Shown: piece after piece, positions 1 to 57,993 of the stretch
How positions within the stretch are numbered: position 1 is the first letter of the stretch
Layout: every line of letters begins with the position of its first letter
Origin: Siphonodentalium dalli
Taxonomy: Eukaryota; Mollusca; Scaphopoda; Gadilida; Siphonodentaliidae
Assembly (NCBI GenBank): GCA_032622095.1
Contig: CP136064.1
Location: forward strand, 2,172,001-2,236,000
Direction of reading: 5' to 3'
Length of the DNA: 64,000 nt
The notes under the pieces: model-generated
Seen by the model: the letters and a program-made list of their open reading frames with translations, nothing else
Told to the model about the DNA's origin: nothing
Database searches by the model: none
Position numbers and translations under genes: made by a program

Positions 1-3000
1 TGGAGTACTGTTGGATATTTTCAATTTGGCGCTTGTTTTTCCATACCGCGCCATGTCAAATCTGGCCATATCCGAATCGGGTTGTCATTTACAATGACTA
101 CAGAAAATAGATATCTTCTTGTTGGAATGCAATAGTATGTTTAAAGGAACAGATGTAACTCAACTTAAAGGGATTAAGTAACACATTCACCAACTTTAAG
201 GGGTATCTGATTTAGACTGGTTCCATGGTGGAGTACGGTTGGATATTTTCAATTTGGCGCATGTTTCTCCATACCGCGCCATGTCAAATCTGGCCATATC
301 CGAATCGGGTTGTCATTTACAATGTCTACAGAAAACAAATATCTTCATGTTGGAATGCAAATGTATGTTTAAAGGAACAGATGTATCTCAACTTAAAGGG
401 ACATAAGTAACACAGTCACCAACTTTAAGGGGTGTCTGATATAGACTGGTTCCATGGTGGAGTACGGTTGGATATTTTCAATTTGGCGCATGTTTTTCCA
501 TACCGCGCCATGTCAAATCTGGCCATATCCGAATCGGGTTGTCATTTACAATGACTGCAGAAAATATATATCTTCATGGTGGAATGCAAATGTATGTTTA
601 AAGGAACAGATGTATCTCAACTTAAAGGGACATAAGTAACACAGTCACCAACTTTAAGGGGTGTCTGATATAGACTGGTTCCATGGTGGAGTACGGTTGG
701 ATATTTTCTATTTGGCGCATGTTTCTCCATACCGCGCCATGTCAAATCTGGCCATATCCGAATCGGGTTGTCATTTACAATGACTACAGAAAATAGATAT
801 CTTCTTGTTGGAATGCAATAGTATGTTTAAAGGAACAGATGTAACTCAACTTAAAGGGATTAAGTAACACATTCACCAACTTTAAGGGGTATCTGATTTA
901 GACTGGTTCCATGGTGGAGTACGGTTGGATATTTTCAATTTGGCGCATGTTTCTCCATACCGCGCCATGTCAAATCTGGCCATATCCGAATCGGGTTGTC
1001 ATTTACAATGTCTACAGAAAACAAATATCTTCATGTTGGAATGCAAATGTATGTTTAAAGGAACAGATGTATCTCAACTTAAAGGGACATAACTAACACA
1101 GTCACCAACTTTAAGGGGTATCTGCTATAGACTGGTTACATGGTGGAGTACGGTTGGATATTTTCAATTTGGCGCATGTTTTTCCATACCGCGCCATGTC
1201 AAATCTGGCCATATCCGAATCGGGTTGTCATTTACAATGACTGCAGAAAATATATATCTTCATGGTGGAATGCAAATGTATGTTTAAAGGAACAGATGTA
1301 TCTCAACTTAAAGGGACATAAGTAACACAGTCACCAACTTTAAGGGGTGTCTGATATAGACTGGTTCCATGGTGGAGTACGGTTGGATATTTTCAATTTG
1401 GCGCATGTTTCTCCATACCGCGCCATGTCAATTCTGGCCATATCCGAATCGGGTTGTCATTTACAATGACTACAGAAAATAAATATCTTCATGTTGGAAT
1501 GCAAATGTATGTTTAAAGGAACAGATGTATCTCAACTTAAAGGGACATAAGTAACACAGTCACCAACTTTAAGGGGTATCTGCTATAGACTGGTTCCATG
1601 GTGGAGTACGGTTGGATATTTTCAATTTGGCGCATGTTTCTCCATACCGCGCCATGTCAAATCTGGCCATATCCGAATCGGGTTGTCATTTACAATGACT
1701 GCAGAAAATAATTATCTTCATGTTGGAATGCAAATGTATGTTTAAAGGAACAGATGTATCTCAACTTAAAGGGACACAAGTAACACAGTCACCAACTTTA
1801 AGGGGTGTCTGATATAGACTGGTTCCATGGTGGAGTACGGTTGGATATTTTCAATTTGGCGGATGTTTCTCCATACCGCGCCATGTCAATTCTGGCCATA
1901 TCCGAATCGGGTTGTCATTTACAATGACTACAGAAAATAAATATCTTCATGTTGGAATGCAAATGTATGTTTAAAGGAACAGATGTATCTCAACTTAAAG
2001 GGACATAAGTAACACAGTCACCAACTTTAAGGGGTATCTGCTATAGACTGGTTCCATGGTGGAGTACGGTTGGATATTTTCAATTTGGCGCATGTTTCTC
2101 CATACCGCGCCATGTCAAATCTGGCCATATCCGAATCGGGTTGTCATTTACAATGACTGCAGAAAATAAATATCTTCATGTTGGAATGCAAATGTATGTT
2201 TAAAGGAACAGATGTATCTCAACTTAAAGGGACACAAGTAACACAGTCACCAACTTTAAGGGGTGTCTCATATAGACTGGTTCCATGGTGGAGTACGGTT
2301 GGATATTTTCAATTTGGCGCATGTTTCTCCATACCGCGCCATGTCAATTCTGGCCATATCCGATTCGGGTTGTCATTTACAATGACTGCAGAAAATATAT
2401 ATCTTCATGGTGGAATGCAAATGTATGTTTAAAGGAACAGATGTATCTCAACTTAAAGGGACATAAGTAACACAGTCACCAACTTTAAGGGGTATCTGCT
2501 ATAGACTGGTTCCATGGTGGAGTACGGTTGGATATTTTCAATTTGGCGGATGTTTCTCCATACCGCGCCATGTCAAATCTGGCCATATCCGAATCGGGTT
2601 GTCATTTACAATGACTACAGAAAATAAATATCTTCATGTTGGAATGCAAATGTATGTTTAAAGGAACAGATGTATCTCAACTTAAAGGGACATAAGTAAC
2701 ACAGTCACCAACTTTAAGGGGTGTCTGCTATAGACTGGTTCTATGGTGGAGTACGGTTGGATATTTTCAATTTGGCGCATGTTTCCCCATACCGCGCCAT
2801 GTCAAATCTGGCCATATCCGAATCGGGTTGTCATTTACAATGACTACAGAAAATAAATATCTTCATGTTGGAATGCAAATGTATGTTTAAAGGAACAGAT
2901 GTATCTCAACTTAAAGGGACATAAATAACACAATCACCAACTTTAAGGGGTATCTGCTATAGACTGGTTCCATGGTGGAGTACTGTTGGATATTTTCAAT

Positions 3001-5031
3001 TTGGCGCATGTTTTTCCATACCGCGCCATGTCAAATCTGGCCATATCCGAATCGGGTTGTCATTTACAATGACTACAGAAAATAGATATCTTCTTGTTGG
3101 AATGCAAATGTATGTTTAAAGGAACAGATGTATCTCAACTTAAAGGGACATAAGTAACACAGTCACCAACTTTAAGGGGTATCTGATTTAGACTGGTTCC
3201 ATGGTGGAGTACGGTTGGATATTTTCAATTTGGCGCATGTTTCTCCATACCGCGCCATGTCAAATCTGGCCATATCCGAATCGGGTTGTCATTTACAATG
3301 TCTACAGAAAACAAATATCTTCATGTTGGAATGCAAATGTATGTTTAAAGGAACAGATGTATCTCAACTTAAAGGGACATAAGTAACACAGTCACCAACT
3401 TTAAGGGGTATCTGCTATAGACTGGTTCCATGGTGGAGTACGGTTGGATATTTTCAATTTGGCGCATGTTTCTCCATACCGCGCCTTGTCAAATCTGGCC
3501 ATATCCGAATCGGGTTGTCATTTACAATGACTACAGAAAATAAATATCTTCATGTTGGAATGCAAATGTATGTTTAAATGAACAGATGTATCTCAACTTA
3601 AAGGGACATAAATAACACAATCACCAACTTTAAGGGGTATCTGCTATAGACTGGTTCCATGGTGGAGTACTGTTGGATATTTTCAATTTGGCGCTTGTTT
3701 TTCCATACCGCGCCATGTCAAATCTGGCCATATCCGAATCGGGTTGTCATTTACAATGACTGCAGAAAATAAATATCTTCATGGTGGAATGCAAATGTAT
3801 GTTTAAAGGAACAGATGTATCTCAACTTAAAGGGACATAAGTAACACAGTCACCAACTTTAAGGGGTGTCTGATATAGACTGGTTCCATGGTGGAGTACG
3901 GTTGGATATTTTCTATTTGGCGCATGTTTCTCCATACCGCGCCATGTCAAATCTGGCCATATCCGAATCGGGTTGTCATTTACAATGACTACAGAAAATA
4001 AATATCTTCATGTTGGAATGCAAATGTATGTTTAAAGGAACAGATGTATCTCAACTTAAAGGGACATAAGTAACACAGTCACCAACTTTAAGGGGTGTCT
4101 GCTATAGACTGGTTCCATGGTGGAGTACGGTTGGATATTTTCAATTTGGCGCATGTTTCCCCATACCGCGCCATGTCAAATCTGGCCATATCCGAATCGG
4201 GTTGTCATTTACAATGACTACAGAAAATAAATATCTTCATGTTGGAATGCAAATGTATGTTTAAAGGAACAGATGTATCTCAACTTAAAGGGACATAAAT
4301 GACACAATCACCAACTTTAAGGGGTATCTGCTATAGACTGGTTCCATGGTGGAGTACTGTTGGATATTTTCAATTTGGCGCATGTTTTTCCATACCGCGC
4401 CATGTCAAATCTGGCCATATCCGAATCGGGTTGTCATTTACAATGACTACAGAAAATAGATATCTTCTTGTTGGAATGCAAATGTATGTTTAAAGGAACA
4501 GATGTATCTCAACTTAAAGGGACATAAGTAACACAGTCACCAACTTTAAGGGGTATCTGATTTAGACTGGTTCCATGGTGGAGTACGGTTGGATATTTTC
4601 AATTTGGCGCATGTTTCTCCATACCGCGCCATGTCAAATCTGGCCATATCCGAATCGGGTTGTCATTTACAATGTCTACAGAAAACAAATATCTTCATGT
4701 TGGAATGCAAATGTATGTTTAAAGGAACAGATGTATCTCAACTTAAAGGGACATAAGTAACACAGTCACCAACTTTAAGGGGTATCTGCTATAGACTGGT
4801 TCCATGGTGGAGTACGGTTGGATATTTTCAATTTGGCGCATGTTTCTCCATACCGCGCCATGTCAAATCTGGCCATATCCGAATCGGGTTGTCATTTACA
4901 ATGACTACAGAAAATAAATATCTTCATGTTGGAATGCAAATGTATGTTTAAAGGAACAGATGTATCTCAACTTAAAGGGACATAAATAACACAATCACCA
5001 ACTTTAAGGGGTATCTGCTATAGACTGGTTC

Positions 5032-5260
5032 CATGGTGGAGTACTGTTGGATATTTTCAATTTGGCGCTTGTTTTTCCATACCGCGCCATGTCAAATCTG
5101 GCCATATCCGAATCGGGTTGTCATTTACAATGACTACAGAAAATAGATATCTTCTTGTTGGAATGCAATAGTATGTTTAAAGGAACAGATGTAACTCAAC
5201 TTAAAGGGATTAAGTAACACATTCACCAACTTTAAGGGGTATCTGATTTAGACTGGTTCC
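5032..5260. repeat. 228-bp subfamily monomer (example; eleven in the main array)
   Basis: Eleven monomers are 228 bp long because GGGACATAAG is replaced by GGGATTAAG. They share a linked haplotype: AAAATAGAT, CTTCTTGTTGG, GCAATAGTATG, GATGTAACTC, CATTCACC and then GGGGTATCTGATTTAG leading into the next unit. They start at about -3, 683, 5032, 5719, 9382, 13731, 14418, 17623, 18080, 20368 and 21054 and are absent to the right of about 21.3 kb. Related monomers at 38459 and 48075 keep most of the haplotype but have GGGACATAAG, so the 1-bp deletion is separable from the rest. Confidence 0.85.
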
Positions 5261-6403
5261 ATGGTGGAGTACGGTTGGATATTTTCAATTTGGCGCATGT
5301 TTCTCCATACCGCGCCATGTCAAATCTGGCCATATCCGAATCGGGTTGTCATTTACAATGTCTACAGAAAACAAATATCTTCATGTTGGAATGCAAATGT
5401 ATGTTTAAAGGAACAGATGTATCTCAACTTAAAGGGACATAAGTAACACAGTCACCAACTTTAAGGGGTGTCTGATATAGACTGGTTCCATGGTGGAGTA
5501 CGGTTGGATATTTTCAATTTGGCGCATGTTTTTCCATACCGCGCCATGTCAAATCTGGCCATATCCGAATCGGGTTGTCATTTACAATGACTGCAGAAAA
5601 TATATATCTTCATGGTGGAATGCAAATGTATGTTTAAAGGAACAGATGTATCTCAACTTAAAGGGACATAAGTAACACAGTCACCAACTTTAAGGGGTGT
5701 CTGATATAGACTGGTTCCATGGTGGAGTACGGTTGGATATTTTCTATTTGGCGCATGTTTCTCCATACCGCGCCATGTCAAATCTGGCCATATCCGAATC
5801 GGGTTGTCATTTACAATGACTACAGAAAATAGATATCTTCTTGTTGGAATGCAATAGTATGTTTAAAGGAACAGATGTAACTCAACTTAAAGGGATTAAG
5901 TAACACATTCACCAACTTTAAGGGGTATCTGATTTAGACTGGTTCCATGGTGGAGTACGGTTGGATATTTTCAATTTGGCGCATGTTTCTCCATACCGCG
6001 CCATGTCAAATCTGGCCATATCCGAATCGGGTTGTCATTTACAATGTCTACAGAAAACAAATATCTTCATGTTGGAATGCAAATGTATGTTTAAAGGAAC
6101 AGATGTATCTCAACTTAAAGGGACATAACTAACACAGTCACCAACTTTAAGGGGTATCTGCTATAGACTGGTTACATGGTGGAGTACGGTTGGATATTTT
6201 CAATTTGGCGCATGTTTTTCCATACCGCGCCATGTCAAATCTGGCCATATCCGAATCGGGTTGTCATTTACAATGACTGCAGAAAATATATATCTTCATG
6301 GTGGAATGCAAATGTATGTTTAAAGGAACAGATGTATCTCAACTTAAAGGGACATAAGTAACACAGTCACCAACTTTAAGGGGTGTCTGATATAGACTGG
6401 TTC
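5032..6403. repeat. Nested 22-monomer repeat unit (5,036-bp shift)
   Basis: The run of variants at -3, 225, 454, 683, 911 and 1140 reappears at 5032, 5261, 5490, 5719, 5947 and 6176, a shift of 22 monomers minus 2 bp. The same run appears again 3,663 bp (16 monomers minus 1 bp) later at 8695-9839, so the 38-monomer period is itself 22 + 16. The run includes two 228-bp monomers and a monomer opening with GGTTACATGG in place of GGTTCCATGG. Confidence 0.85.
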
Positions 6404-8699
6404 CATGGTGGAGTACGGTTGGATATTTTCAATTTGGCGCATGTTTCTCCATACCGCGCCATGTCAATTCTGGCCATATCCGAATCGGGTTGTCATTTAC
6501 AATGACTACAGAAAATAAATATCTTCATGTTGGAATGCAAATGTATGTTTAAAGGAACAGATGTATCTCAACTTAAAGGGACATAAGTAACACAGTCACC
6601 AACTTTAAGGGGTATCTGCTATAGACTGGTTCCATGGTGGAGTACGGTTGGATATTTTCAATTTGGCGCATGTTTCTCCATACCGCGCCATGTCAAATCT
6701 GGCCATATCCGAATCGGGTTGTCATTTACAATGACTGCAGAAAATAAATATCTTCATGTTGGAATGCAAATGTATGTTTAAAGGAACAGATGTATCTCAA
6801 CTTAAAGGGACATAAGTAACACAGTCACCAACTTTAAGGGGTGTCTGATATAGACTGGTTCCATGGTGGAGTACGGTTGGATATTTTCAATTTGGCGCAT
6901 GTTTCTCCATACCGCGCCATGTCAATTCTGGCCATATCCGAATCGGGTTGTCATTTACAATGACTACAGAAAATAAATATCTTCATGTTGGAATGCAAAT
7001 GTATGTTTAAAGGAACAGATGTATCTCAACTTAAAGGGACATAAATAACACAATCACCAACTTTAAGGGGTATCTGCTATAGACTGGTTCCATGGTGGAG
7101 TACTGTTGGATATTTTCAATTTGGCGCATGTTTTTCCATACCGCGCCATGTCAAATCTGGCCATATCCGAATCGGGTTGTCATTTACAATGACTACAGAA
7201 AATAGATATCTTCTTGTTGGAATGCAAATGTATGTTTAAAGGAACAGATGTATCTCAACTTAAAGGGACATAAGTAACACAGTCACCAACTTTAAGGGGT
7301 ATCTGATTTAGACTGGTTCCATGGTGGAGTACGGTTGGATATTTTCAATTTGGCGCATGTTTCTCCATACCGCGCCATGTCAAATCTGGCCATATCCGAA
7401 TCGGGTTGTCATTTACAATGTCTACAGAAAACAAATATCTTCATGTTGGAATGCAAATGTATGTTTAAAGGAACAGATGTATCTCAACTTAAAGGGACAT
7501 AAGTAACACAGTCACCAACTTTAAGGGGTATCTGCTATAGACTGGTTCCATGGTGGAGTACGGTTGGATATTTTCAATTTGGCGCATGTTTCTCCATACC
7601 GCGCCTTGTCAAATCTGGCCATATCCGAATCGGGTTGTCATTTACAATGACTACAGAAAATAAATATCTTCATGTTGGAATGCAAATGTATGTTTAAAGG
7701 AACAGATGTATCTCAACTTAAAGGGACATAAATAACACAATCACCAACTTTAAGGGGTATCTGCTATAGACTGGTTCCATGGTGGAGTACTGTTGGATAT
7801 TTTCAATTTGGCGCTTGTTTTTCCATACCGCGCCATGTCAAATCTGGCCATATCCGAATCGGGTTGTCATTTACAATGACTGCAGAAAATAAATATCTTC
7901 ATGGTGGAATGCAAATGTATGTTTAAAGGAACAGATGTATCTCAACTTAAAGGGACATAAGTAACACAGTCACCAACTTTAAGGGGTGTCTGATATAGAC
8001 TGGTTCCATGGTGGAGTACGGTTGGATATTTTCTATTTGGCGCATGTTTCTCCATACCGCGCCATGTCAAGTCTGGCCATATCCGAATCGGGTTGTCATT
8101 TACAATGACTACAGAAAATAAATATCTTCATGTTGGAATGCAAATGTATGTTTAAAGGAACAGATGTATCTCAACTTAAAGGGACATAAGTAACACAGTC
8201 ACCAACTTTAAGGGGTGTCTGCTATAGACTGGTTCCATGGTGGAGTACGGTTGGATATTTTCAATTTGGCGCATGTTTCCCCATACCGCGCCATGTCAAA
8301 TCTGGCCATATCCGAATCGGGTTGTCATTTACAATGACTACAGAAAATAAATATCTTCATGTTGGAATGCAAATGTATGTTTAAAGGAACAGATGTATCT
8401 CAACTTAAAGGGACATAAATGACACAATCACCAACTTTAAGGGGTATCTGCTATAGACTGGTTCCATGGTGGAGTACTGTTGGATATTTTCAATTTGGCG
8501 CATGTTTTTCCATACCGCGCCATGTCAAATCTGGCCATATCCGAATCGGGTTGTCATTTACAATGACTACAGAAAATAGATATCTTCTTGTTGGAATGCA
8601 AATGTATGTTTAAAGGAACAGATGTATCTCAACTTAAAGGGACATAAGTAACACAGTCACCAACTTTAAGGGGTATCTGATTTAGACTGGTTCCATGGT

Positions 8700-11600
8700 G
8701 GAGTACGGTTGGATATTTTCAATTTGGCGCATGTTTCTCCATACCGCGCCATGTCAAATCTGGCCATATCCGAATCGGGTTGTCATTTACAATGTCTACA
8801 GAAAACAAATATCTTCTTGTTGGAATGCAAATGTATGTTTAAAGGAACAGATGTATCTCAACTTAAAGGGACATAAGTAACACAGTCACCAACTTTAAGG
8901 GGTATCTGCTATAGACTGGTTCCATGGTGGAGTACGGTTGGATATTTTCAATTTGGCGCATGTTTCTCCATACCGCGCCATGTCAAATCTGGCCATATCC
9001 GAATCGGGTTGTCATTTACAATGTCTACAGAAAACAAATATCTTCATGTTGGAATGCAAATGTATGTTTAAAGGAACAGATGTATCTCAACTTAAAGGGA
9101 CATAAGTAACACAGTCACCAACTTTAAGGGGTGTCTGATATAGACTGGTTCCATGGTGGAGTACGGTTGGATATTTTCAATTTGGCGCATGTTTTTCCAT
9201 ACCGCGCCATGTCAAATCTGGCCATATCCGAATCGGGTTGTCATTTACAATGACTGCAGAAAATATATATCTTCATGGTGGAATGCAAATGTATGTTTAA
9301 AGGAACAGATGTATCTCAACTTAAAGGGACATAAGTAACACAGTCACCAACTTTAAGGGGTGTCTGATATAGACTGGTTCCATGGTGGAGTACGGTTGGA
9401 TATTTTCTATTTGGCGCATGTTTCTCCATACCGCGCCATGTCAAATCTGGCCATATCCGAATCGGGTTGTCATTTACAATGACTACAGAAAATAGATATC
9501 TTCTTGTTGGAATGCAATAGTATGTTTAAAGGAACAGATGTAACTCAACTTAAAGGGATTAAGTAACACATTCACCAACTTTAAGGGGTATCTGATTTAG
9601 ACTGGTTCCATGGTGGAGTACGGTTGGATATTTTCAATTTGGCGCATGTTTCTCCATACCGCGCCATGTCAAATCTGGCCATATCCGAATCGGGTTGTCA
9701 TTTACAATGTCTACAGAAAACAAATATCTTCATGTTGGAATGCAAATGTATGTTTAAAGGAACAGATGTATCTCAACTTAAAGGGACATAACTAACACAG
9801 TCACCAACTTTAAGGGGTATCTGCTATAGACTGGTTACATGGTGGAGTACGGTTGGATATTTTCAATTTGGCGCATGTTTTTCCATACCGCGCCATGTCA
9901 AATCTGGCCATATCCGAATCGGGTTGTCATTTACAATGACTGCAGAAAATATATATCTTCATGGTGGAATGCAAATGTATGTTTAAAGGAACAGATGTAT
10001 CTCAACTTAAAGGGACATAAGTAACACAGTCACCAACTTTAAGGGGTGTCTGATATAGACTGGTTCCATGGTGGAGTACGGTTGGATATTTTCAATTTGG
10101 CGCATGTTTCTCCATACCGCGCCATGTCAATTCTGGCCATATCCGAATCGGGTTGTCATTTACAATGACTACAGAAAATAAATATCTTCATGTTGGAATG
10201 CAAATGTATGTTTAAAGGAACAGATGTATCTCAACTTAAAGGGACATAAGTAACACAGTCACCAACTTTAAGGGGTATCTGCTATAGACTGGTTCCATGG
10301 TGGAGTACGGTTGGATATTTTCAATTTGGCGCATGTTTCTCCATACCGCGCCATGTCAAATCTGGCCATATCCGAATCGGGTTGTCATTTACAATGACTG
10401 CAGAAAATAATTATCTTCATGTTGGAATGCAAATGTATGTTTAAAGGAACAGATGTATCTCAACTTAAAGGGACACAAGTAACACAGTCACCAACTTTAA
10501 GGGGTGTCTGATATAGACTGGTTCCATGGTGGAGTACGGTTGGATATTTTCAATTTGGCGGATGTTTCTCCATACCGCGCCATGTCAATTCTGGCCATAT
10601 CCGAATCGGGTTGTCATTTACAATGACTACAGAAAATAAATATCTTCATGTTGGAATGCAAATGTATGTTTAAAGGAACAGATGTATCTCAACTTAAAGG
10701 GACATAAGTAACACAGTCACCAACTTTAAGGGGTATCTGCTATAGACTGGTTCCATGGTGGAGTACGGTTGGATATTTTCAATTTGGCGCATGTTTCTCC
10801 ATACCGCGCCATGTCAAATCTGGCCATATCCGAATCGGGTTGTCATTTACAATGACTGCAGAAAATAAATATCTTCATGTTGGAATGCAAATGTATGTTT
10901 AAAGGAACAGATGTATCTCAACTTAAAGGGACACAAGTAACACAGTCACCAACTTTAAGGGGTGTCTGATATAGACTGGTTCCATGGTGGAGTACGGTTG
11001 GATATTTTCAATTTGGCGCATGTTTCTCCATACCGCGCCATGTCAATTCTGGCCATATCCGATTCGGGTTGTCATTTACAATGACTGCAGAAAATATATA
11101 TCTTCATGGTGGAATGCAAATGTATGTTTAAAGGAACAGATGTATCTCAACTTAAAGGGACATAAGTAACACAGTCACCAACTTTAAGGGGTATCTGCTA
11201 TAGACTGGTTCCATGGTGGAGTACGGTTGGATATTTTCAATTTGGCGCATGTTTCTCCATACCGCGCCATGTCAAATCTGGCCATATCCGAATCGGGTTG
11301 TCATTTACAATGACTACAGAAAATAAATATCTTCATGTTGGAATGCAAATGTATGTTTAAAGGAACAGATGTATCTCAACTTAAAGGGACATAAGTAACA
11401 CAGTCACCAACTTTAAGGGGTGTCTGCTATAGACTGGTTCTATGGTGGAGTACGGTTGGATATTTTCAATTTGGCGCATGTTTCCCCATACCGCGCCATG
11501 TCAAATCTGGCCATATCCGAATCGGGTTGTCATTTACAATGACTACAGAAAATAAATATCTTCATGTTGGAATGCGAATGTATGTTTAAAGGAACAGATG

Positions 11601-32275: not shown

Positions 32276-32504
32276 ATGGTGGAGTACTGTTGGATATTTT
32301 CAATTTGGCGCATGTTTTTCCATACCGCGCCATGTCAAATCTGGCCATATCCGAATCGAGTTGTCATTTACAATGACTACAGAAAATAGATATCTTCTTG
32401 TTGGAATGCAAAAGTATGTTTAAAGGAACAGATGTAACTCAACTTAAAGGGACATAAGTAACACAGTCACCAACTTTAAGGGGTATCTGATTTAGACTGG
32501 TTCC

Positions 32505-39374: not shown

Positions 39375-40290
39375 ATGGTGGAGTACGGTTGGATATTTTC
39401 AATTTGGCGCATGTTTCTCCATACCGCGCCATGTCAATTCTGGCCATATCCGAATCGGGTTGTCATTTACAATGACTACAGAAAATAAATATCTTCATGT
39501 TGGAATGCAAATGTATGTTTAAAGGAACAGATGTATCTCAACTTAAAGGGACATAAGTAACACAGTCACCAACTTTAAGGGGTATCTGCTATAGACTGGT
39601 TCCATGGTGGAGTACGGTTGGATATTTTCAATTTGGCGCATGTTTCTCCATACCGCGCCATGTCAAATCTGGCCATATCCGAATCGGGTTGTCATTTACA
39701 ATGACTGCAGAAAATAAATATCTTCATGTTGGAATGCAAATGTATGTTTAAAGGAACAGATGTATCTCAACTTAAAGGGACATAAGTAACACAGTCACCA
39801 ACTTTAAGGGGTGTCTGATATAGACTGGTTCCATGGTGGAGTACGGTTGGATATTTTCAATTTGGCGCATGTTTCTCCATACCGCGCCATGTCAATTCTG
39901 GCCATATCCGAATCGGGTTGTCATTTACAATGACTACAGAAAATAAATATCTTCATGTTGGAATGCAAATGTATGTTTGAAGGAACAGATGTATCTCAAC
40001 TTAAAGGGACATAAGTAACACAGTCACCAACTTTAAGGGGTGTCTGCTATAGACTGGTTCCATGGTGGAGTACGGTTGGATATTTTCAATTTGGCGCATG
40101 TTTCTCCATACCGCGCCATGTCAAATCTGGCCATATCCGAATCGGGTTGTCATTTACAATGACTACAGAAAATAAATATCTTCATGTTGGAATGCAAATG
40201 TATGTTTAAAGGAACAGATGTATCTCAACTTAAAGGGACATAAATAACACAATCACCAACTTTAAGGGGTATCTGCTATAGACTGGTTCC

Positions 40291-46700: not shown

Positions 46701-49677
46701 ATGGTGGAGTACTGTTGGATATTTTCAATTTGGCGCATGTTTTTCCATACCGCGCCATGTCAAATCTGGCCATATCCGAATCGGGTTGTCATTTACAATG
46801 ACTGCAGAAAATATATATCTTCATGGTGGAATGCAAATGTATGTTTAAAGGAACAGATGTATCTCAACTTAAAGGGACATAAGTAACACAGTCACCAACT
46901 TTAAGGGGTGTCTGATATAGACTGGTTCCATGGTGGAGTACGGTTGGATATTTTCTATTTGGCGCATGTTTCTCCATACCGCGCCATGTCAAATCTGGCC
47001 ATATCCGAATCGGGTTGTCATTTACAATGACTACAGAAAATAAATATCTTCATGTTGGAATGCAAATGTATGTTTAAAGGAACAGATGTATCTCAACTTA
47101 AAGGGACATAAGTAACACAGTCACCAACTTTAAGGGGTGTCTGCTATAGACTGGTTCCATGGTGGAGTACGGTTGGATATTTTCAATTTGGCGCATGTTT
47201 CCCCATATCGCGCCATGTCAAATCTGGCCATATCCGAATCGGGTTGTCATTTACAATGACTACAGAAAATAAATATCTTCATGTTGGAATGCAAATGTAT
47301 GTTTAAAGGAACAGATGTATCTCAACTTAAAGGGACATAAATAACACAATCACCAACTTTAAGGGGTATCTGCTATAGACTGGTTCCATGGTGGAGTACT
47401 GTTGGATATTTTCAATTTGGCGCATGTTTTTCCATACCGCGCCATGTCAAATCTGGCCAGATCCGAATCGGGTTGTCATTTACAATGACTACAGAAAATA
47501 GATATCTTCTTGTTGGAATGCAAATGTATGTTTAAAGGAACAGATGTATCTCAACTTAAAGGGACATAAGTAACACAGTCACCAACTTTAAGGGGTATCT
47601 GATTTAGACTGGTTCCATGGTGGAGTACGGTTGGATATTTTCAATTTGGCGCATGTTTCTCCATACCGCGCCATGTCAAATCTGGCCATATCCGAATCGG
47701 GTTGTCATTTACAATGTCTACAGAAAACAAATATCTTCATGTTGGAATGCAAATGTATGTTTAAAGGAACAGATGTATCTCAACTTAAAGGGACATAAGT
47801 AACACAGTCACCAACTTTAAGGGGTATCTGCTATAGACTGGTTCCATGGTGGAGTACGGTTGGATATTTTCAATTTGGCGCATGTTTCTCCATACCGCGC
47901 CATGTCAAATCTGGCCATATCCGAATCGGGTTGTCATTTACAATGACTACAGAAAATAAAAATCTTCATGTTGGAATGCAAATGTATGTTTAAAGGAACA
48001 GATGTATCTCAACTTAAAGGGACATAAATAACACAATCACCAACTTTAAGGGGTATCTGCTATAGACTGGTTCCATGGTGGAGTACTGTTGGATATTTTC
48101 AATTTGGCGCTTGTTTTTCCATACCGCGCCATGTCAAATCTGGCCATATCCGAATCGGGTTGTCATTTACAATGACTACAGAAAATAGATATCTTCTTGT
48201 TGGAATGCAATAGTATGTTTAAAGGAACAGATGTAACTCAACTTAAAGGGACATAAGTAACACATTCACCAACTTTAAGGGGTATCTGATTTAGACTGGT
48301 TCCATGGTGGAGTACGGTTGGATATTTTCAATTTGGCGCATGTTTCTCCATACCGCGCCATGTCAAATCTGGCCATATCCGAATCGGGTTGTCATTTACA
48401 ATGTCTACAGAAAACAAATATCTTCATGTTGGAATGCAAATGTATGTTTAAAGGAACAGATGTATCTCAACTTAAAGGGACATAAGTAACACAGTCACCA
48501 ACTTTAAGGGGTATCTGCTATAGACTGGTTCCATGGTGGAGTACGGTTGGATATTTTCAATTTGGCGCATGCTTCTCCATACCGCGCCATGTCAAATCTG
48601 GCCATATCCGAATCGGGTTGTCATTTACAATGACTGCAGAAAATATATATCTTCATGTTGGAATGCAAATGTATGTTTAAATGAACAGATGTATCTCAAC
48701 TTAAAGGGACATAACTAACACAGTCACCAACTTTAAGGGGTATCTGCTATAGACTGGTTACATGGTGGAGTACGGTTGGATATTTTCAATTTTGCGCATG
48801 TTTCTCCATACCGCGCCATGTCAAATCTGGCCATATCCGAATCGGGTTGTCATTTACAATGACTGCAGAAAATAAATATCTTCATGTTGGAATGCAAAGG
48901 TATGTTTAAAGGAACAGATGTATCTCAACTTAAAGGGACATAAGTAACACAGTCACCAACTTTAAGGGGTGTCTGATATAGACTGGTTCCATGGTGGAGT
49001 ACAGTTGGATATTTTCAATTTGGCGCATGTTTCTCCATACCGCGCCATATCAAATCTGGCCATATCCGAATCGGGTTGTCATTTACAATGTCTACAGAAA
49101 ACAAATATCTTCATGTTGGAATGCAAATGTATGTTTAAAGGAACAGATGTATCTCAACTTAAAGGAACATAAGTAACACAGTCACCAACTTTAAGGGGTA
49201 TCTGCTATAGACTGGTTCCATGGTGGAGTACGGTTGGATATTTTCAATTTGGCGCATGTTTCTCCATAACGCGCCATGTCAAATCTGGCCATATCCGAAT
49301 CGGGTTGTCATTTACAATGACTGCAGAAAATAAATATCTTCATGTTGGAATGCAAATGTATGTTTAAAGGAACAGATGTATCTCAACTTAAAGGGACATA
49401 AGTAACACAGTCACCAACTTTAAGGGGTGTCTGATATAGACTGGTTCCATGGTGGAGTACGGTTGGATATTTTCAATTTGGCGCATGTTTCTCCATACCG
49501 CGCCATGTCAATTCTGGCCATATCCGAATCGGGTTGTCATTTACAATGACTACAGAAAATAAATATCTTCATGTTGGAATGCAAATGTATGTTTAAAGGA
49601 ACAGATGTATCTCAACTTAAAGGGACATAAGTAACACAGTCACCAACTTTAAGGGGTGTCTGCTATAGACTGGTTCC

Positions 49678-50071
49678 ATGGTGGAGTACGGTTGGATATT
49701 TTCAATTTGGCGCATGTTTCTCCATACCGCGCCATGTCAAATCTGGCCATATCCGAATCGGGTTGTCATTTACAATGACTACAGAAAATAAATATCTTCA
49801 TGTTGGAATGCAAATGTATGTTTAAAGGAACAGATGTATCTCAACTTAAAGGGACATAAATAACACAATCACCAACTTTAAGGGGTATCTGCTATAGCAT
49901 GTCAAATCTGGCCCTATCCGAATCGGGTTGTCATTTACAATGACTGCAGAAAATATATATCTTCATGGTGGAATGCAAATGTATGTTTAAAGGAACAGAT
50001 GTATCTCAACTTAAAGGGACATAAGTAACACAGTCACCAACTTTAAGGGGTATCTGCTATAGACTGGTTCC
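49678..50071. repeat. Monomer pair with a 64-bp internal deletion
   Basis: At 49897/49898 the text jumps from TCTGCTATAG straight to CATGTCAAATC, missing the 64 bases from ACTGG through CCGCGC. The next monomer starts at 50072 where 50136 was expected, which confirms the size. It is the largest internal deletion in the array. Confidence 0.93.
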
Positions 50072-52984
50072 ATGGTGGAGTACGGTTGGATATTTTCAAT
50101 TTGGCGCATGTTTCTCCATACCGCGCCATGTCAAATCTGGCCATATCCGAATCGGGTTGTCATTTACAATGACTACAGAAAATAAATATCTTCATGTTGG
50201 AATGCAAATGTATGTTTAAAGGAACAGATGTATCTCAACTTAACAGGACATGAGTAACACAGTCACCAACTTTAAGGGGTGTCTGCTATAGACTGGTTCC
50301 ATGGTGGAGTACGGTTGGATATTTTCAATTTGGCGCATGTTTCTCCATACCGCGCCATGTCAAATCTGGCCATATCCGAATCGGGTTGTCATTTACAATG
50401 ACTGCAGAAAATAAATATCTTCATGTTGGAATGCAAATGTATGTTTAAAGGAACAGATGTATCTCAACTTAAAGGGACACAAGTAACACAGTCACCAACT
50501 TTAAGGGGTGTCTGATATAGACTGGTTCCATGGTGGAGTACAGGTTGGATATTTTCAATTTGGCGCATGTTTCTCCATACCGCGCCATGTCAATTCTGGC
50601 CATATCCGAATCGGGTTGTCATTTACAATGACTACAGAAAATAAATATCTTCATGTTGGAATGCAAATGTATGTTTAAAGGAACAGATGTATCTCAACTT
50701 AAAGGGACATAAGTAACACAGTCACCAACTTTAAGGGGTGTCTGCTATAGACTGGTTCCATGGTGGAGTACGGTTGGATATTTTCAATTTGGCGCATGTT
50801 TCTCCATACCGCGCCATGTCAAATCTGGCCCTATCCGAATCGGGTTGTCATTTACAATGACTGCAGAAAATATATATCTTCATGGTGGAATGCAAATGTA
50901 TGTTTAAAGGAACAGATGTATCTCAACTTAAAGGGACATAAGTAACACAGTCACCAACTTTAAGGGGTATCTGCTATAGACTGGTTCCATGGTGGAGTAC
51001 GGTTGGATATTTTCAATTTGGCGCATGTTTCTCCATACCGCGCCATGTCAAATCTGGCCATATCCGAATCGGGTTGTCATTTACAATGACTACAGAAAAT
51101 AAATATCTTCATGTTGGAATGCAAATGTATGTTTAAAGGAACAGATGTATCTCAACTTAAAGGGACATAAGTAACACAGTCACCAACTTTAAGGGGTATC
51201 TGCTATAGACTGGTTCCATGGTGGAGTACGGTTGGATATTTTCAATTTGGCGCATGTTTCTCCATACCGCGCCATGTCAAATCTGGCCATATCCGATTCG
51301 GGTTGTCATTTACAATGACTGCAGAAAATATATATCTTCATGGTGGAATGCAAATGTATGTTTAAAGGAACAGATGTATCTCAACTTAAAGGGACATAAG
51401 TAACACAGTCACCAACTTTAAGGGGTATCTGCTATAGACTGGTTCCATGGTGGAGTACGGTTGGATATTTTCAATTTGGCACATGTTTCTCCATACCGCG
51501 CCATGTCAAATCTGGACATATCCGAATCGGGTTGTCATTTACAATGACTACAGAAAATAAATATCTCCATGTTGGAATGCAAATGTATGTTTAAAGGAAC
51601 AGATGTATCTCAACTTAAAGGGACATAAGTAACACAGTCACCAACTTTAAGGGGTATCTGCTATAGACTGGTTCCATGGTGGAGTACGGTTGGATATTTT
51701 CAATTTGGCGCATGTTTCTCCATACCGCGCCATGTCAAATCTGGCCCTATCCGAATCGGGTTGTCATTTACAATGACTGCAGAAAATATATATCTTCATG
51801 GTGGAATGCAAATGTATGTTTAAAGGAACAGATGTTTCTCAACTTAAAGGGACATAAGTAACACAGTCACCAACTTTAAGGGGTATCTGCTATAGACTGG
51901 TTCCATGGTGGAGTACGGTTGGATATTTTCTATTTGGCGCATGTTTCTCCATACCGCGCCATGTCAAATCTGGCCATATCCGAATCGGGTTGTCATTTAC
52001 AATGACAACAGAAAATAAATATCTCCATGTTGGAATGCAAATGTATGTTTAAAGGAACAGATGTATCTCAACTTAAAGGGACATAAGTAACAGTCATCAA
52101 CTTTAAGGGGTATCTGCTATAGACTGGTTCCATGGTGGAGTACGGTTGGATATTTTCAATTTGGCGCATGTTTCTCCATACCGCGCCATGTCAAATCTGG
52201 CCATATCCGAATCGGGTTGTCATTTACAATGACTGCAGAAAATAAATATCTTCATGTTGGAATGCAAATGTATATTTAAAGGAACAGATGTATCTCAACT
52301 TAAAGGGACATAAGTAACACAGTCACCAACTTAAAGGGGTGTTTGCTATAGACTGGTTCCATGGTGGAGTACGGTTGGATATTTTCAATTTGGCGCATGT
52401 TTCTCCATACCACGCCATGTCAAATCTGGCCATATCCGAATCGGGTTGTCATTTACAATGACTACAGAAAATAAATATCTTCAAGTTGGAATGCAAATGT
52501 ATGTTTAAAGGAACAGATGTATCTCAACTTAAAGGGACATAAGTAACACAGTCACCAACTTTAAGGGGTATCTGCTATAGACTGGTTCCATGGTGGAGTA
52601 CGGTTGGATATTTTCAATTTGGCGCATGTTTCTCCATACCGCGCCATGTCAAATCTGGCCATATCCGAATCGGGTTGTCATTTACAATGACTGCAGAAAA
52701 TAAATATCTTCATGTTGGATTGCAAATGTATGTTTAAAGGAACAGATGTATCTCAACTTAAAGGGACACAAGTAACACAGTCACCAACTTTAAGGGGTGT
52801 CTGATATAGACTGGTTCCATGGTGGAGTACGGTTGGATATTTTCAATTTGGCGCATGTTTCTCCATACCGCGCCATGTCAATTCTGGCCATATCCGAATC
52901 GGGTTGTCATTTACAATGACTACAGAAAATAAATATCTTCATGTTGGAATGCAAATGTATGTTTAAAGGAACAGATGTATCTCA

Positions 52985-52990
52985 ACTTAA
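52985..52990. repeat. Left copy of ACTTAA flanking the 3.2-kb insert
   Basis: ACTTAA at monomer offset 166 is the last satellite sequence before the foreign segment. The satellite resumes with the same ACTTAA at 56172. The ambiguity allows a duplication of 4 (TTAA), 5 or 6 bp. Confidence 0.8.
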
Positions 52991-53072
52991 TCCACAGTCG
53001 CCATATTTTCTATTGTTCTCCCTTGCACAATATCCAGCCGATTGCCCACTGGTAACAATAGCTGTGGATTAT
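52988..53072. repeat. Interrupted inverted repeat at the left end of the insert
   Basis: TAATCCACAG (52988-52997) and CTATTGTT (53010-53017), separated by 12 bases, together are the reverse complement of AACAATAGCTGTGGATTA at 53054-53071. This gives a bulged hairpin at the left boundary. TAA belongs to the flanking satellite side, so part of the match may be fortuitous. Confidence 0.55.
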
Positions 53073-53119
53073 TTAAACAATAAGTGTGCATTATTTTAAC
53101 AATAACTGTGGAATATTAA
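53054..53119. repeat. Three-copy 22-bp tandem repeat
   Basis: AACAATA starts at 53054, 53076 and 53098, exactly 22 bp apart. Each is followed by a related TGTGG/CATTA-type tail (AGCTGTGGATTATTT, AGTGTGCATTATTTT, ACTGTGGAATATTAA). It is a short imperfect minisatellite. Confidence 0.8.
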
Positions 53120-53187
53120 AATATTCCCCAGGTATTGTCATAACAATCGCAAGTCATTGTTTGCTGTGTTCTCCACTTGCTGACACA

Positions 53188-53545
53188 CCGGAATGTAAAA
53201 TTGGTGTGACCAATCAATCAATCAAATAAGAAACTGAACAGTCTTAGGTGATTATAATGATCATAGGGATACTAAGAAAGACGGTGGGTGGAATTTGTTT
53301 AATGTAATAACAACAATTTTACATCAATGTTAGACAATTCGGACTAGAAAAATATAGATCACCCCTGGTCAAGTGGTCCAGCAATATACTGAATTATGAT
53401 CTAGTTATGTGTTAATTTATTGTACTATTAATATGTGTATTATAAATAAAATTATCCTATCCTATCCTATCTGCTATGATGCGGTTGGGTCCTGCTGAAT
53501 TGCTCTGATGATGGTAGGGCAAACTGATGCTGTTAACAAATAGTA
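53188..53545 (+). repeat. Diverged direct repeat, copy A (interrupted twice)
   Basis: Three colinear blocks match copy B downstream: 53188-53205 (CCGGAATGTAAAATTGGT) with 54241-54258, 53330-53394 with 54269-54324, and 53470-53545 with 54325-54400. Copy A has about 120 bp of extra sequence between the first two blocks and 75 bp between the last two. The match is colinear but not identical. Confidence 0.75.
53395..53469 (+). mobile_element. 75-bp LINE-like 3' tail inserted in copy A
   Basis: This stretch interrupts copy A where copy B is continuous (GTCCTGCTAATCTGC). It is AT-rich, contains ATAAATAAAA and ends in a run of TATCC units up to the junction with TCTGCTATGATG. An AATAAA-type signal followed by a short microsatellite is typical of the extreme 3' end of 5'-truncated non-LTR retrotransposons, and a comparable tail (AATAAATTCTATTCTATTCT) ends the LINE fragment at 58345. 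The family is not identified. Confidence 0.6.
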
Positions 53546-53862
53546 GCGTGAGTTCCACAACGAATTAAAACAATGTACAAGCTAAAATTGAAGTCTGCTC
53601 TTGTGTGAGTTTGGACAATATGCATAGCAAATGCATTGCTCAACGCCACATATGCTAAGTCAGTGTCGTAATTTGGTTGCGAACAAACAATATATTTATT
53701 AGATTTATTATTTAAGTTACCAGTGTGATTATGGGAATAAGTGGTATGAAGGTCTAAATTATGCTCGCGTTTGTTATATTCGTATAAGGCCTCTGTATGC
53801 CGCACATAGCCTAGTTCAAGAGATTGAATTGAGAAAGTTCGGTTCCCCAACTTCTTTGGCAT
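53533..53862 (-). other. Unrecognised 109-codon open frame in the insert
   Basis: This open frame lies on the minus strand between copy A and the left foldback arm. Its product would be rich in Asn, His and Tyr with no signal peptide, membrane segment or family motif that I recognise. It overlaps the end of copy A, so part of it is repeat-derived. A chance frame or remnant of a mobile-element ORF is more likely than a gene. Confidence 0.15.
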
Positions 53863-53865
53863 TGA

Positions 53866-53925
53866 ACAATAAAGAGCGTTCCTTGTTAATACATTCCTGG
53901 TGTGGTATGAATAAAGAGCGTTTTT
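53866..53925 (+). repeat. Foldback arm, left (about 60 bp)
   Basis: The arm carries AATAAAGAGCGTT twice (53868-53880 and 53909-53921). It is the reverse complement, with scattered mismatches, of 54641-54701, where AACGCTCTTTAT also occurs twice with similar spacing. The two arms enclose about 715 bp holding the RT fragment and copy B. Confidence 0.75.
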
Positions 53926-54009
53926 CTCTCCCTTGTGTGCGAAATATTTAAAACAGCTGAAAAATATATGTTATATTAACATTTATTTTCAGAGCACACA
54001 AAGCCGGTA

Positions 54010-54250
54010 TATCACTGGGGCTCTCCTCGCCTTTGTCGATTATGCAGAAGCTTGGAAGCTTCAAGTCAATACAAAAACAAAAAAAATAATGATTTTCACG
54101 AAGAAATGGTCGAAAAATCTCCCCACATTCAAGTATGGAGGCTGTAGCCTAGAAATAGTTAAAGAATTCACTTATTTGGGGGGGGGTAAATTATTTTATA
54201 ATCGTCGATTCCGCCAGAACATAAAGAAAACAGTTACAAACCGGAATGTG
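54010..54250 (+). pseudogene. Fragment of a LINE reverse transcriptase
   Basis: The open frame at 53933-54286 (117 codons) contains, from about residue 26 to 105, a stretch typical of the late RT domain of non-LTR retrotransposons: a short helix ending WKLQVN, then K.KKIMIF.K, F.YGG..LEIV and FTYLG. These are the conserved W.L.VN..KTK.M.F and Y.G..LE.V..F.YLG blocks of CR1/Jockey-like and related polymerases. The catalytic FADD box, the rest of RT and the endonuclease are absent, and the frame runs into copy B. A G-run near 54179-54187 sits where the glycine after YLG is expected, and polymerase slippage there could have shifted the frame. It is a dead fragment. The N-terminal 25 residues have no RT likeness. 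Confidence 0.75.
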
Positions 54251-54400
54251 AAATTGGTAATTTCGGAATTAGACAATTCGGACTAGAAAAAATATATTCC
54301 ACCCCGGTCAAGTAGTCCTGCTAATCTGCTATGATGCGGTTGGGTCCTACTGAATTTCTCTGATGATGTTAGGGCAAACTGATGCTGATAACAAATACTA
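54241..54400 (+). repeat. Diverged direct repeat, copy B
   Basis: Uninterrupted partner of 53188-53545, including TTAGACAATTCGGACTAG, GGTCAAGTAGTCC, GATGCGGTTGGGTCCTA and GGGCAAACTGATGCTG. It follows the RT fragment directly, so it may derive from the same LINE or from the sequence that LINE landed in. Confidence 0.75.
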
Positions 54401-54640
54401 CCATTATATATTTTTTAATTTGTCTTTTTCGCGGTGTTGCGATAATCTGAAAATATCCACGAAAAGCCATTATGCGTATCAAACATTCAAAACATATTTA
54501 TTGCGAAATATGTTTAATACTGGTTGTATTAGTTGTTGAAATTCGACTATATTTTCGTACGATGGTGTACGTAAACACACACAAGTTGTGCTCTGCTTAC
54601 ATAACACAGAGCAATTCGATTGGTTATTCATACACAATGA

Positions 54641-54701
54641 TATAAACGCTCTTTATTATTTCCATATCAGGAAAACAGTAATAAATAACGCTCTTTATGT
54701 T
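54641..54701 (-). repeat. Foldback arm, right (about 60 bp)
   Basis: Reverse-complement partner of 53866-53925, with AACGCTCTTTATT at 54645-54657 and AACGCTCTTTAT at 54688-54699. The arms could be terminal inverted repeats of a small decayed DNA element or two opposed copies of a dispersed repeat. No target duplication next to the arms is obvious. Confidence 0.7.
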
Positions 54702-56060
54702 TACCATATCCGGATCTAAACAAAAGCCAGAAAACGTAACATGTTTTGCTTTTGTTTACATGCCAAAGGGGAAGAAATCGACAATAACTTACTGCTTATG
54801 TCATATTTCTGATTGCTATAAGAACAAAGTCTGTCTATATTTCACTATTTATGGCGGTTTTTGACGGATGGGAATATTTTAACAGCATACCCACCGCCAA
54901 CGCCGCCCGTATCTTTAACGACACATTTGCATTGTATTTGAGACTTGTTCTAATAATGAAAAACTTACGAAGGTGGAGCCTTCTTATAACACGGAATCAC
55001 TCGCACAATATAATTTTCTGGTAAATGCTAAATATTTAAATGTTGATAATCCAAATCAGTTCGTAATGTCGGGTACACCACACTATAACTTAAGTGGATT
55101 AGTTACGTTGATTACATGGATTTTAATAAAAATGTTAAGAATTTGATGTCAAAATGCTGAAATTGAAGATCGTTTTATACGGGTAACGACTACTATATAT
55201 TTATAGTAAATAAACCTCATTCGATAACTTACGTTGGTCAAGAACTCCTTGTAAATCCAACTTCGAATTCATGGAAATAAATCAGATAAACAGTACAATA
55301 CGAAAACGACTCATCGAAAGATTTTTTTATTCCAATATTAACGGAAAACATCAGTTTGATCATCGGCTGGATTGTCATTTACCTCCGGGTGCTTGTGATG
55401 TTTATTTCGCTTATAAAATGAACGCCATGCTGATAACATATAACTATGTAATATCCATTTAGATAACGTCGACACAGAAAGTTTAGAAAATTACTTCATT
55501 CCCTGTTCGAGTACGTTTTACTGACAAAATTCACTCTTCTCACATTCAATTTACAAATGCGCCCGAGAACGACGTGTTAATTAATTAGATTAAAGCGTGG
55601 GGTAAGCTAATCGGCGACAAAGGCAATATCATGTTTGGGGCTACCTATAACTGATATCCCGATAACCACTCATCATAACTGGATTGTCAACGCGGCTCAG
55701 TGCATACCAACTCAATGCGACAATTTTGATTTGAGACAATGCAGCGAGGACGAGCAGTATCAGGCCAAGCAAATTAAATGTTTGTTGTAACTGGAAGGTG
55801 TCAATGGCGATTGACACATTTTTAATGACAATTTTAATTCCAAATCTCCAGATCACTATTTAAAGTGGCAACTGAATTTGCGTACAAATCTTTATTTGTC
55901 TGACAGATTCGGAAATTGTTTAATGGTCATGTTCACATTTTTTGTTAAAACTTTTATTGACTTTTAGTTGAATATATCATACATTGTAATGTCATTGACA
56001 AATTTCAAAGTAATACTATAGGTAAAATGAAATTTCGTCTTGTTATTCTTTAAATACTGA
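54702..56060. other. AT-rich part of the insert with no recognised gene
   Basis: About 1.36 kb without recognisable domains. Two open frames are long enough to mention: 55271-55462 on the plus strand (63 codons) and 55641-55856 on the minus strand (71 codons, with a hydrophobic stretch around residues 28-50 that could span a membrane). Neither resembles a family I know, and both are within chance length for AT-rich DNA. Confidence 0.5.
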
Positions 56061-56070
56061 GTATTAAGCC

Positions 56071-56168
56071 AGATATTCCCCTCGCTGTCGGCCATTCGTC
56101 CAAATAAACGCCTCGGCTTCGCCTCGGTGAATTATTTCTCCGAATGCCCGACAGCTCGGGGAATATCC
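56071..56168. repeat. 98-bp imperfect palindrome at the right end of the insert
   Basis: Left arm AGATATTCCCC...GCTGTCGG.CATTCG...AAATAA...GCCTCGG pairs with right arm CCTCGGTGAATTATTTCTCCGAATG.CCGACAGC..GGGGAATATCC. The apex is the short palindrome CCTCGGCTTCGCCTCGG. TTAA lies at 56064-56067 and again at 56174-56177, 6-7 bp outside each arm, so this may be a small foldback or MITE-like element in its own right. GC-rich CGAGGCGAAGCC-type apices contrast with the AT-rich surroundings. Confidence 0.8.
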
Positions 56169-56171
56169 TAT

Positions 56172-56177
56172 ACTTAA
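56172..56177. repeat. Right copy of ACTTAA flanking the insert
   Basis: The satellite resumes here at offset 166. It continues AAAGGAACATAAG, CACCAACTTTAAGG and reaches the next ATG at 56235, exactly 63 bp on as in an intact monomer. Confidence 0.8.
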
Positions 56178-57867
56178 AGGAACATAAGTAACACAGTCAC
56201 CAACTTTAAGGGGTGTCTGCTATAGACTGGTTCCATGGTGGAGTACGGTTGGATATTTTCAATTTGGCGCATGTTTCTCCATACCGCGCCATGTCAAATC
56301 TGGCCCTATCCGAATCGGGTTGTCATTTACAATGACTGCAGAAAATATATATCTTCATGGTGGAATGCAAATGTATGTTTAAAGGAACAGATGTATCTCA
56401 ACTTAAAGGGACATAAGTAACACAGTCACCAACTTTAAGGGGTATCTGCTATAGACTGGTTCCATGGTGGAGTACGGTTGGATATTTTCAATTTGGCGCA
56501 TGTTTCTCCATACCGCGCCATGTCAAATCTGGCCATATCCGAATCGGGTTGTCATTTACAATGACTACAGAAAATAAATATCTTCATGTTGGAATGCAAA
56601 TGTATGTTTAAAGGAACAGATGTATCTCAACTTAAAGGGACATAAGTAACACAGTCACCAACTTTAAGGGGTATCTGCTATAGACTGGTTCCATGGTGGA
56701 GTACGGTTGGATATTTTCAATTTGGCGCATGTTTCTCCATACCGCGCCATGTCAAATCTGGCCATATCCGATTCGGGTTGTCATTTACAATGACTGCAGA
56801 AAATATATATCTTCATGGTGGAATGCAAATGTATGTTTAAAGGAACAGATGTATCTCAACTTAAAGGGACATAAGTAACACAGTCACCAACTTTAAGGGG
56901 TATCTGCTATAGACTGGTTCCATGGTGGAGTACGGTTGGATATTTTCAATTTGGCGCATGTTTCTCCATACCGCGCCATGTCAAATCTGGCCCTATCCGA
57001 ATCGGGTTGTCATTTACAATGACTGCAGAAAATATATATCTTCATGGTGGAATGCAAATGTATGTTTAAAGGAACAGATGTATCTCAACTTAAAGGGACA
57101 TAAGTAACACAGTCACCAACTTTAAGGGGTATCTGCTATAGACTGGTTCCATGGTGGAGTACGGTTGGATATTTTCAATTTGGCGCATGTTTCTCCATAC
57201 CGCGCCATGTCAAATCTGGCCATATCCGAATCGGGTTGTCATTTACAATGACTACAGAAAATAAATATCTTCATGTTGGAATGCAAATGTATGTTTAAAG
57301 GAACAGATGTATCTCAACTTAAAGGGACATAAGTAACACAGTCACCAACTTTAAGGGGTGTCTGCTATAGACTGGTTCCATGGTGGAGTACGGTTGGATA
57401 TTTTCAATTTGGCGCATGTTTCTCCATACCGCGCCATGTCAAATCTGGCCATATCCGAATCGGGTTGTCATTTACAATGACTGCAGAAAATAAATATCTT
57501 CATGTTGGAATGCAAATGTATGTTTAAAGGAACAGATGTATCTCAACTTAAAGGGACACAAGTAACACAGTCACCAACTTTAAGGGGTGTCTGATATAGA
57601 CTGGTTCCATGGTGGAGTACAGGTTGGATATTTTCAATTTGGCGCATGTTTCTCCATACCGCGCCATGTCAATTCTGGCCATATCCGAATCGGGTTGTCA
57701 TTTACAATGACTACAGAAAATAAATATCTTCATGTTGGAATGCAAATGTATGTTTAAAGGAACAGATGTATCTCAACTTAAAGGGACATAAGTAACACAG
57801 TCACCAACTTTAAGGGGTGTCTGCTATAGACTGGTTCCATGGTGGAGTACGGTTGGATATTTTCTAT
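56172..57867. repeat. 229-bp satellite array, right block (about 7.4 monomers)
   Basis: Monomer starts are at 56235, 56464, 56693, 56922, 57151, 57380, 57609 and 57839 (the last truncated). The order GGCCCTATCC, plain, CCGATTCGG matches monomers 50760, 50989 and 51218. The later order GGCCCTATCC (56922), plain, GGGACACAAG (57380), TACAGGTTGG (57609) matches the truncated 49898 monomer, then 50072, 50301 and 50530. The block is therefore the continuation of the edge-type satellite and not a separate family. It ends inside a monomer at TATTTTCTAT. Confidence 0.96.
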
Positions 57868-57975: not shown

Positions 57976-57993
57976 GGGTATGGAGATCTTCTT

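Follow-up and report, generated by a model that had tools for sequence, protein, structure and literature searches.

The inner edge of a megabase-long array of a 229-bp satellite has probably been reshaped by repeated local duplication and deletion of monomer blocks through unequal exchange, with larger duplications on top. Unequal exchange is supported by duplications whose matched length is close to their offset, by the local sharing of monomer order, by breakpoints without clear clustering, and by the similarity of the array, in most measures, to simulations with blocks of variable length. The window that we analysed is a stretch of 64,000 nucleotides (contig C4, positions 2172001 to 2236000) in a genome of 2.23 Gb and nine contigs, and all readings of the array come from the sequence of one assembly of one individual.

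The satellite array and its genomic setting

The 229-bp satellite array in the window is real, given that TRF reports this period in two adjoining rows at 1-52990, with 96% matches in the main part, and again at 56172-57864. The original prediction had described positions 1-57867 as satellite, which is correct for the array itself and wrong for 52988-56173, where a non-satellite insert of 3186 bp interrupts it. The window is composed of the following features (M and N are array domains that are described below):

1-52987, + strand: 229-bp satellite array, head to tail; the inner part of the array at the end of C4, which by probes extends from position 1 to about 2.23 Mb
49682-49846, + strand: monomer shortened to 165 bp by a 64-bp deletion, near the end of the N-type monomers
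50764-52987, + strand: some ten monomers on the left side of the insert, with M as closest domain and runs of 4-6 monomers in common with it
52988-56173, + strand: mobile-element insert of 3186 bp that starts TAATCCACAG and ends CTATAC, with a 3' hairpin and no target duplication seen
56174-57866, + strand: seven distal satellite monomers that reach the array edge, with M as closest domain and 3 monomers as longest run shared with it
57867-64000, no strand assigned: non-satellite flank with inverted-repeat (foldback) sequences

Two of the foldbacks in the flank are inverted repeats at 59882-60022 (57-nt arms, 96%) and 62025-62175 (74-nt arms, 86%). An Rfam search of 49000-64000 found no structured RNA at the gathering threshold.

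Cutting the window at an anchor yielded 239 monomer starts in place of the 231 monomers initially counted. Near full length was reached by 236, and the monomers comprise 96 distinct aligned sequences with a mean pairwise difference of 7.9 nt. The array is also far longer than the 53 kb first assigned to it, since all 20 probes of C4 between position 1 and 2.08 Mb hit satellite. Of these probes, 16 are on the plus strand, and the 4 on the minus strand (position 1 and 10, 200, and 600 kb) do not go beyond 0.6 Mb. Within the first 0.8 Mb of the contig, the satellite strand switches several times from probe to probe, and C4:1-10240 opens inside minus-strand satellite without telomere repeat. The opposite end of C4, when probed, contained no satellite. 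As far as its sequence goes, the location of the array at a contig end would fit a centromere or a subtelomere.

Across the genome, an exact 42-base piece of the satellite has 6591 matches on the plus and 893 on the minus strand, and a thinner satellite pattern occurs at 183 places (120 plus, 63 minus). Among the 100 of these places that were listed, 60 lie on C4 and 40 on C3 (3 at 288.37-288.64 Mb, 2 at 296.39 Mb, and 35 at 301.20-301.35 Mb), where the first of the three satellite stretches reaches to 288.66 Mb. Direct probing found satellite at 4 of 17 sites on C3, the start of this contig counted, and no satellite on the remaining contigs at any of 6 starts or 16 further probes. The satellite in a 20-kb sample of C3 is more diverged (94% to the consensus). 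A rare variant from the window edge has matches in the window only. Among the contig ends that were probed, a CCCTAA telomere-repeat array was seen at the start of C3 only, while short tandem repeats of other kinds were noticed by eye at the starts of C2 and C8, 100 kb before the end of C6, and at 100 kb on C7. A literature search for a 229-bp satellite, made without a species name, gave no match, and this satellite may still be in print.

Overlapping and nested periods without a dominant unit

Monomer order was analysed with the 217 of 236 monomers left of the 165-bp monomer, and a run was defined as at least four monomers with at most one difference each. By this measure the window contains 33 off-diagonal runs, compared to a mean of 0.04 and a maximum of 1 in 200 shuffles of monomer order. 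Of the ten shifts that the original prediction had listed, nine (4, 16, 20, 22, 27, 29, 31, 38, and 42) show runs of at least four monomers and shift 2 does not, being present just as a short exact 2-mer duplication. Runs further occur at 18 shifts outside that list (11, 18, 23, 32, 43, 51, 52, 58, 60, 67, 69, 77, 89, 101, 106, 119, 128, and 146). The longest comprise 29 monomers at shift 38, 26 at shift 27, 17 at shift 29, and 10 at shift 42, and correspond to these blocks:

213-7044, + strand: copy A of the duplication with an offset of 38 monomers (6832 bp matched, 7 mismatches); copy B at about 8912-15743
13507-17399, + strand: copy A of a 17-monomer block that recurs at an offset of 29 monomers, with copy B starting near 20144
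26310-32615, + strand: copy A of the tandemly duplicated 27-mer, which matches over 6306 bp at an offset of 6183; copy B starts at 32493
37089-39378, + strand: 10-monomer block that recurs 42 monomers on; the copy from about 46705

The nesting that had been proposed is borne out in both instances, with runs at shifts 22 and 16 falling within the 38-monomer structure (38 = 22 + 16) and a tetramer duplicated inside the 27-mer (runs 126 to 130 and 153 to 157, 27 apart). Because the tetramer duplication is present in both copies of the 27-mer, the tetramer was duplicated first and the 27-mer second.

We extended this analysis to a contiguous 214 kb (the window and 150 kb adjoining it) with 876 monomers, of which 873 were used after three spans holding inserts or the array edge had been set aside. 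There are 393 runs of at least four monomers in this region, and they use 85 of the first 100 shifts. A single period over the larger region is rejected, as expected from the proposal that no one unit dominates: among the 873 monomers, no shift up to 300 scores above 0.10, and shifts above 700 give values up to 0.23 that come from few pairs. Taken domain by domain (117, 380, and 345 monomers), the best shift has values of 0.22, 0.25, and 0.19, respectively. In the sample from 1.00-1.03 Mb, shift 13 scores highest of those up to 69 (0.26), and shift 87 reaches 0.53 from few pairs; in the 20-kb sample of C3, shift 17 reaches 0.56 with a 17-mer in three copies. Over these 214 kb, the array lacks the one dominant n-mer unit in many copies of a Willard-type higher-order repeat array and has the overlapping blocks of many lengths, all from one monomer family, that characterize irregular multi-monomer duplication.

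Lengths, ends, and order of block duplications

Ten segments are tandem-like in that the run exceeds 0.7 of its shift. In six of them (shifts 29, 27, 23, 20, 13, and 11), the matched length departs from the offset by just -7 to +123 bp, which is what simple tandem duplication requires, and the other four deviate by 663-1867 bp. The 38-mer, 22-mer, and second 20-mer events are shorter than their offset by 1867, 860, and 687 bp, while the match of a 9-mer event continues 663 bp beyond its offset, as with a partial third copy. The six clean duplications span 11 to 29 monomers, are two-copy, adjacent, and in order, and have diverged by 0.00-0.17%; divergence reaches 0.39% among 58 local segments.

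The positions of block ends within the monomer were compared for 48 left and 47 right ends, drawn from at most 124 of 141 segments, and agree with uniform crossover (chi-square 2.2 and 7.1, 6 bins). One bin of right ends holds 13 where 7.6 are expected. A crossover hotspot within the monomer was considered and discarded, given no clear clustering beyond polymorphic sites.

Greedy collapse of duplicated blocks shortened the domains from 345 to 250 (N2), from 380 to 300 (M), and from 117 to 94 monomers (N1), that is, by 95, 80, and 23 monomers, and three collapses emerge only once earlier ones are done. Ten shuffled controls (five for N2, five for M) gave at most four collapses of no more than 3 monomers each. 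The suggestion that the events could be put in order is partly right, with the tetramer firmly placed before the 27-mer; the full history is unreadable, and collapse explains part of each domain.

Neutral simulations

We simulated the array under three models with neutral mutation (30 runs each, settings chosen by hand after earlier trials). Simulations with tandem duplication and deletion of variable length agree with the array in the mean difference, the length of the longest run, and the number of shifts, and those with fixed 16-mers develop a dominant period (top shift 0.76-0.87). The fit is imperfect, however: in 60 of 60 variable-length runs, shifts of at most 8 are commoner than in the real array, in 58 of 60 the top shift is higher than the real one, and the real array has more distinct monomers than any run of one of the models. 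With longer blocks and more mutation, 3 of 12 settings reach the low short-shift value that was observed. Judging from these misfits of the models, real exchange may use longer steps than those that we fitted.

Domains of shared monomer order

In 10-kb bins, the region around the window separates into a domain M (2.052-2.142 Mb) and a domain N on both of its sides (2.022-2.048 and 2.142-2.221 Mb). M and N have no run of at least four monomers in common within the 214 kb, and the lone count at an M/N bin border is a run inside N. N order is common to both flanks of M, and bins within M share up to 115 monomers. N-type monomers end near the 165-bp monomer at window position 49682, and the seven monomers beyond the insert have minimum differences of 0-1 to M versus 0-2 to N2. 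Five monomers of 269-270 bp (C4 positions 2054161, 2081431, 2081701, 2102563, and 2103062) contain the same internal 41-bp tandem duplication, which is a further mark of shared ancestry inside domain M, the insert being the first.

The stretch from 1.70 to 2.022 Mb was sampled by ten 5-kb pieces, one 10-kb piece, and short probes. All nine pieces from 1.80 to 2.005 Mb share runs with 2.02-2.23 Mb: a 5-kb piece at 1.80 Mb matches M, and eight pieces between 1.86 and 2.005 Mb match N. The pieces at 1.70 Mb and 1.00-1.03 Mb (126 of 130 monomers examined in the latter) have no run in common with 2.02-2.23 Mb and match neither M nor N, even though the mean difference of the sharing pieces is similar to that of the non-sharing ones. 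From these sampled sequences, the layout of C4 reads as an old array followed by M(insert)-N-M(insert)-N-M(insert)-edge.

A mobile-element insert present three times

Near-identical copies of the insert element are found on all nine contigs among 40 places scored. The junction between satellite and the 5' end of the insert, searched with up to 2 mismatches, occurs three times in the genome (C4 1.795, 2.049, and 2.225 Mb, thus 254 and 176 kb apart). A variant near the 3' end of the insert, searched without mismatches, likewise has three matches in the genome, in the same three array copies, and is missing from all seven outside copies read at this end. One junction and one private variant in all three copies show that the array inserts descend from a single insertion that was then multiplied. 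Independent insertions at a preferred site are ruled out by the same two features. Pairwise, the array copies differ at 6 of 3155, 11 of 3145, and 12 of 3116 bases (0.19-0.39%). The middle insert (C4 about 2.049-2.054 Mb) holds 1429 additional bp, and 40 bp found in the other two are missing from it.

Helitrons begin with 5' TC and end with CTRR at the 3' end. The insert element resembles them in having no clear target-site duplication (judged by eye in seven of seven outside copies with both ends read) and a hairpin near its 3' end (36-nt arms at 56072-56167). Its ends are of another kind, starting with TAATCC (or AATCC) and finishing with CTATAC, so that the element appears only partly Helitron-like. 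A 117-aa open frame inside the insert (window 53933-54286) resembles, by eye, the end of a LINE reverse transcriptase.

Ordered runs at 745 and 749 monomers connect 2.025-2.041 with 2.201-2.217 Mb, close to the offset of 748 monomers between the inserts, and the longest segment of this chain comprises 19 monomers at 749 with 0.21% divergence. Since runs at 740, 760, 771, 778, 791, and 820 monomers link the two regions as well, the chain at 745-749 is suggestive only. To the left of the inserts, homology between copies is gone within one or two monomers: at the first insert, exact matches comprise the abutting monomer and one other singly, and at the second, the two or three monomers just before it tend towards M. 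This loss would also fit conversion of the insert or misassembly.

Large duplications with later erosion are the likeliest carriers of the inserts, as far as the sequences can tell, and we infer the order of the large events as well. It is a good deal less likely that the insert spread by gene conversion or break-induced copying with short flanks instead of by duplications of 176-254 kb. Such short-flank copying would account for homology ending within one or two monomers left of all three inserts and for an N-to-M change at a different distance from each of them, but it would not predict the runs near the insert's own offset that connect 2.025-2.041 with 2.201-2.217 Mb, nor the M-type monomers that follow the first insert (in the 1.80-Mb piece) and surround the third.

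The older part of the array, M, and N might be viewed as exchange compartments of one monomer family with about equal divergence and no shared variant order, in which the insert may have served as the alignment point that drove the duplications of 176-254 kb. We consider this idea speculative and improbable; each of the three inserts is found near a compartment border, at a distance of about 0.2 to 3 kb.

Discussion

We propose that misaligned copies of the array would exchange unequally between sister chromatids, between homologues, or in break repair, causing local tandem duplication and deletion of blocks whose length differs from event to event. Because block length would vary in this way, no unit wins, and periods overlap and nest. 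Larger duplications would then copy whole stretches and carry one insertion into M-type satellite to three copies, with alternating M and N blocks forming to the right of the older array. The sequence itself establishes the blocks with their offsets and divergences, the M and N domains, and the common descent of the three inserts; it is the recombination route in this scheme that we infer. The pattern of the array can be explained without any biological role.

The nested order could alternatively be an artefact of assembly, with near-identical blocks misjoined or wrongly repeated. Some features of the contig would suit this explanation, in that the shared zone has its border at 1.795 Mb, no more than about one monomer away from a high-copy insert element, and C4 opens in satellite without a telomere, with four of the 20 probes on the other strand and none of these four beyond 0.6 Mb. 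We nevertheless regard an artefact as improbable, as the blocks have distinct edges and scattered substitutions between copies, the three inserts differ from each other (one by an extra 1429 bp), and the 264 kb examined (200 kb and the window) contain no letter N.

Unequal exchange had originally been offered side by side with rolling-circle amplification, and it is the former that the data favor through length matching offset in six of ten events, locality, and simulations. Amplification on extrachromosomal circles followed by reinsertion might explain the 9-mer match that runs 663 bp beyond its offset and the 17-mer in three copies on C3, but it is very improbable and not needed, because the six clean events are two-copy, adjacent, and ordered, and common order in the sampled pieces is local and not scattered.

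The contrast that the original prediction drew between this array and well-known satellites was overdrawn with regard to maize CentC, Arabidopsis CEN178, and human multi-period arrays. In the passages on maize centromere 10, the higher-order repeats of CentC are described as adjacent segmental duplications of mixed age, dated by substitutions, in a region with mobile elements and a 22.7-kb segmental duplication (PMC4806543). The array studied here is similar in its block duplications of differing age and nearby mobile elements, and most simply arose by unequal exchange as in the account given there (PMC4806543); it differs in sequence and length and in containing one element three times, 176 and 254 kb apart. 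Arabidopsis CEN178 has overlapping multi-monomer duplications, and one monomer may join several of them (TRASH paper, PMC10199239, in the part concerned with such repeats). Our array resembles it in these overlapping duplications, and the likeness of the 229-bp satellite is one of repeat order only, centromeric position being a feature of CEN178.

For human arrays, the relevant sections report cascading higher-order repeats with several periods in one array for alpha satellite of chromosome 15 (PMC11050224) and saltatory higher-order repeats with new blocks intermixed with older ones, for which mechanisms beyond simple unequal crossover are argued in that particular case (PMC11062924). Several periods per array and new blocks among older ones are likewise seen here. 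In the portions cited, the human arrays retain a canonical unit in many copies (e.g., 429 of a 15-mer), whereas no unit prevails here. Smith's model of 1976, as summarized in a review (PMC8122249, section on this model), holds that unselected tandem DNA turns repetitive via out-of-register exchange. That model is general; in the present array, the sizes and locality of events can be read. Growth by the copying of blocks is ordinary for satellite DNA, and CentC, CEN178, and human higher-order repeats cover the kind.

What this array adds is the thrice-copied insert, by which the largest copying steps can be traced. The array offers a clear example of a satellite without dominant unit in which block sizes, edges, and locality are measurable, and the simulations relate this state to mechanism: fixed-length steps lead to a dominant unit, and variable-length exchange leads to a mixture like the real array. 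With a divergence of 0.19-0.39%, the insert provides an outside yardstick for events that are poorly dated by satellite sequence, and comparison with its flanks suggests that satellite order near the insert changes faster than the insert itself. If the view of the array as exchange compartments were true, a single insertion would both tag and drive the largest scale of array growth.
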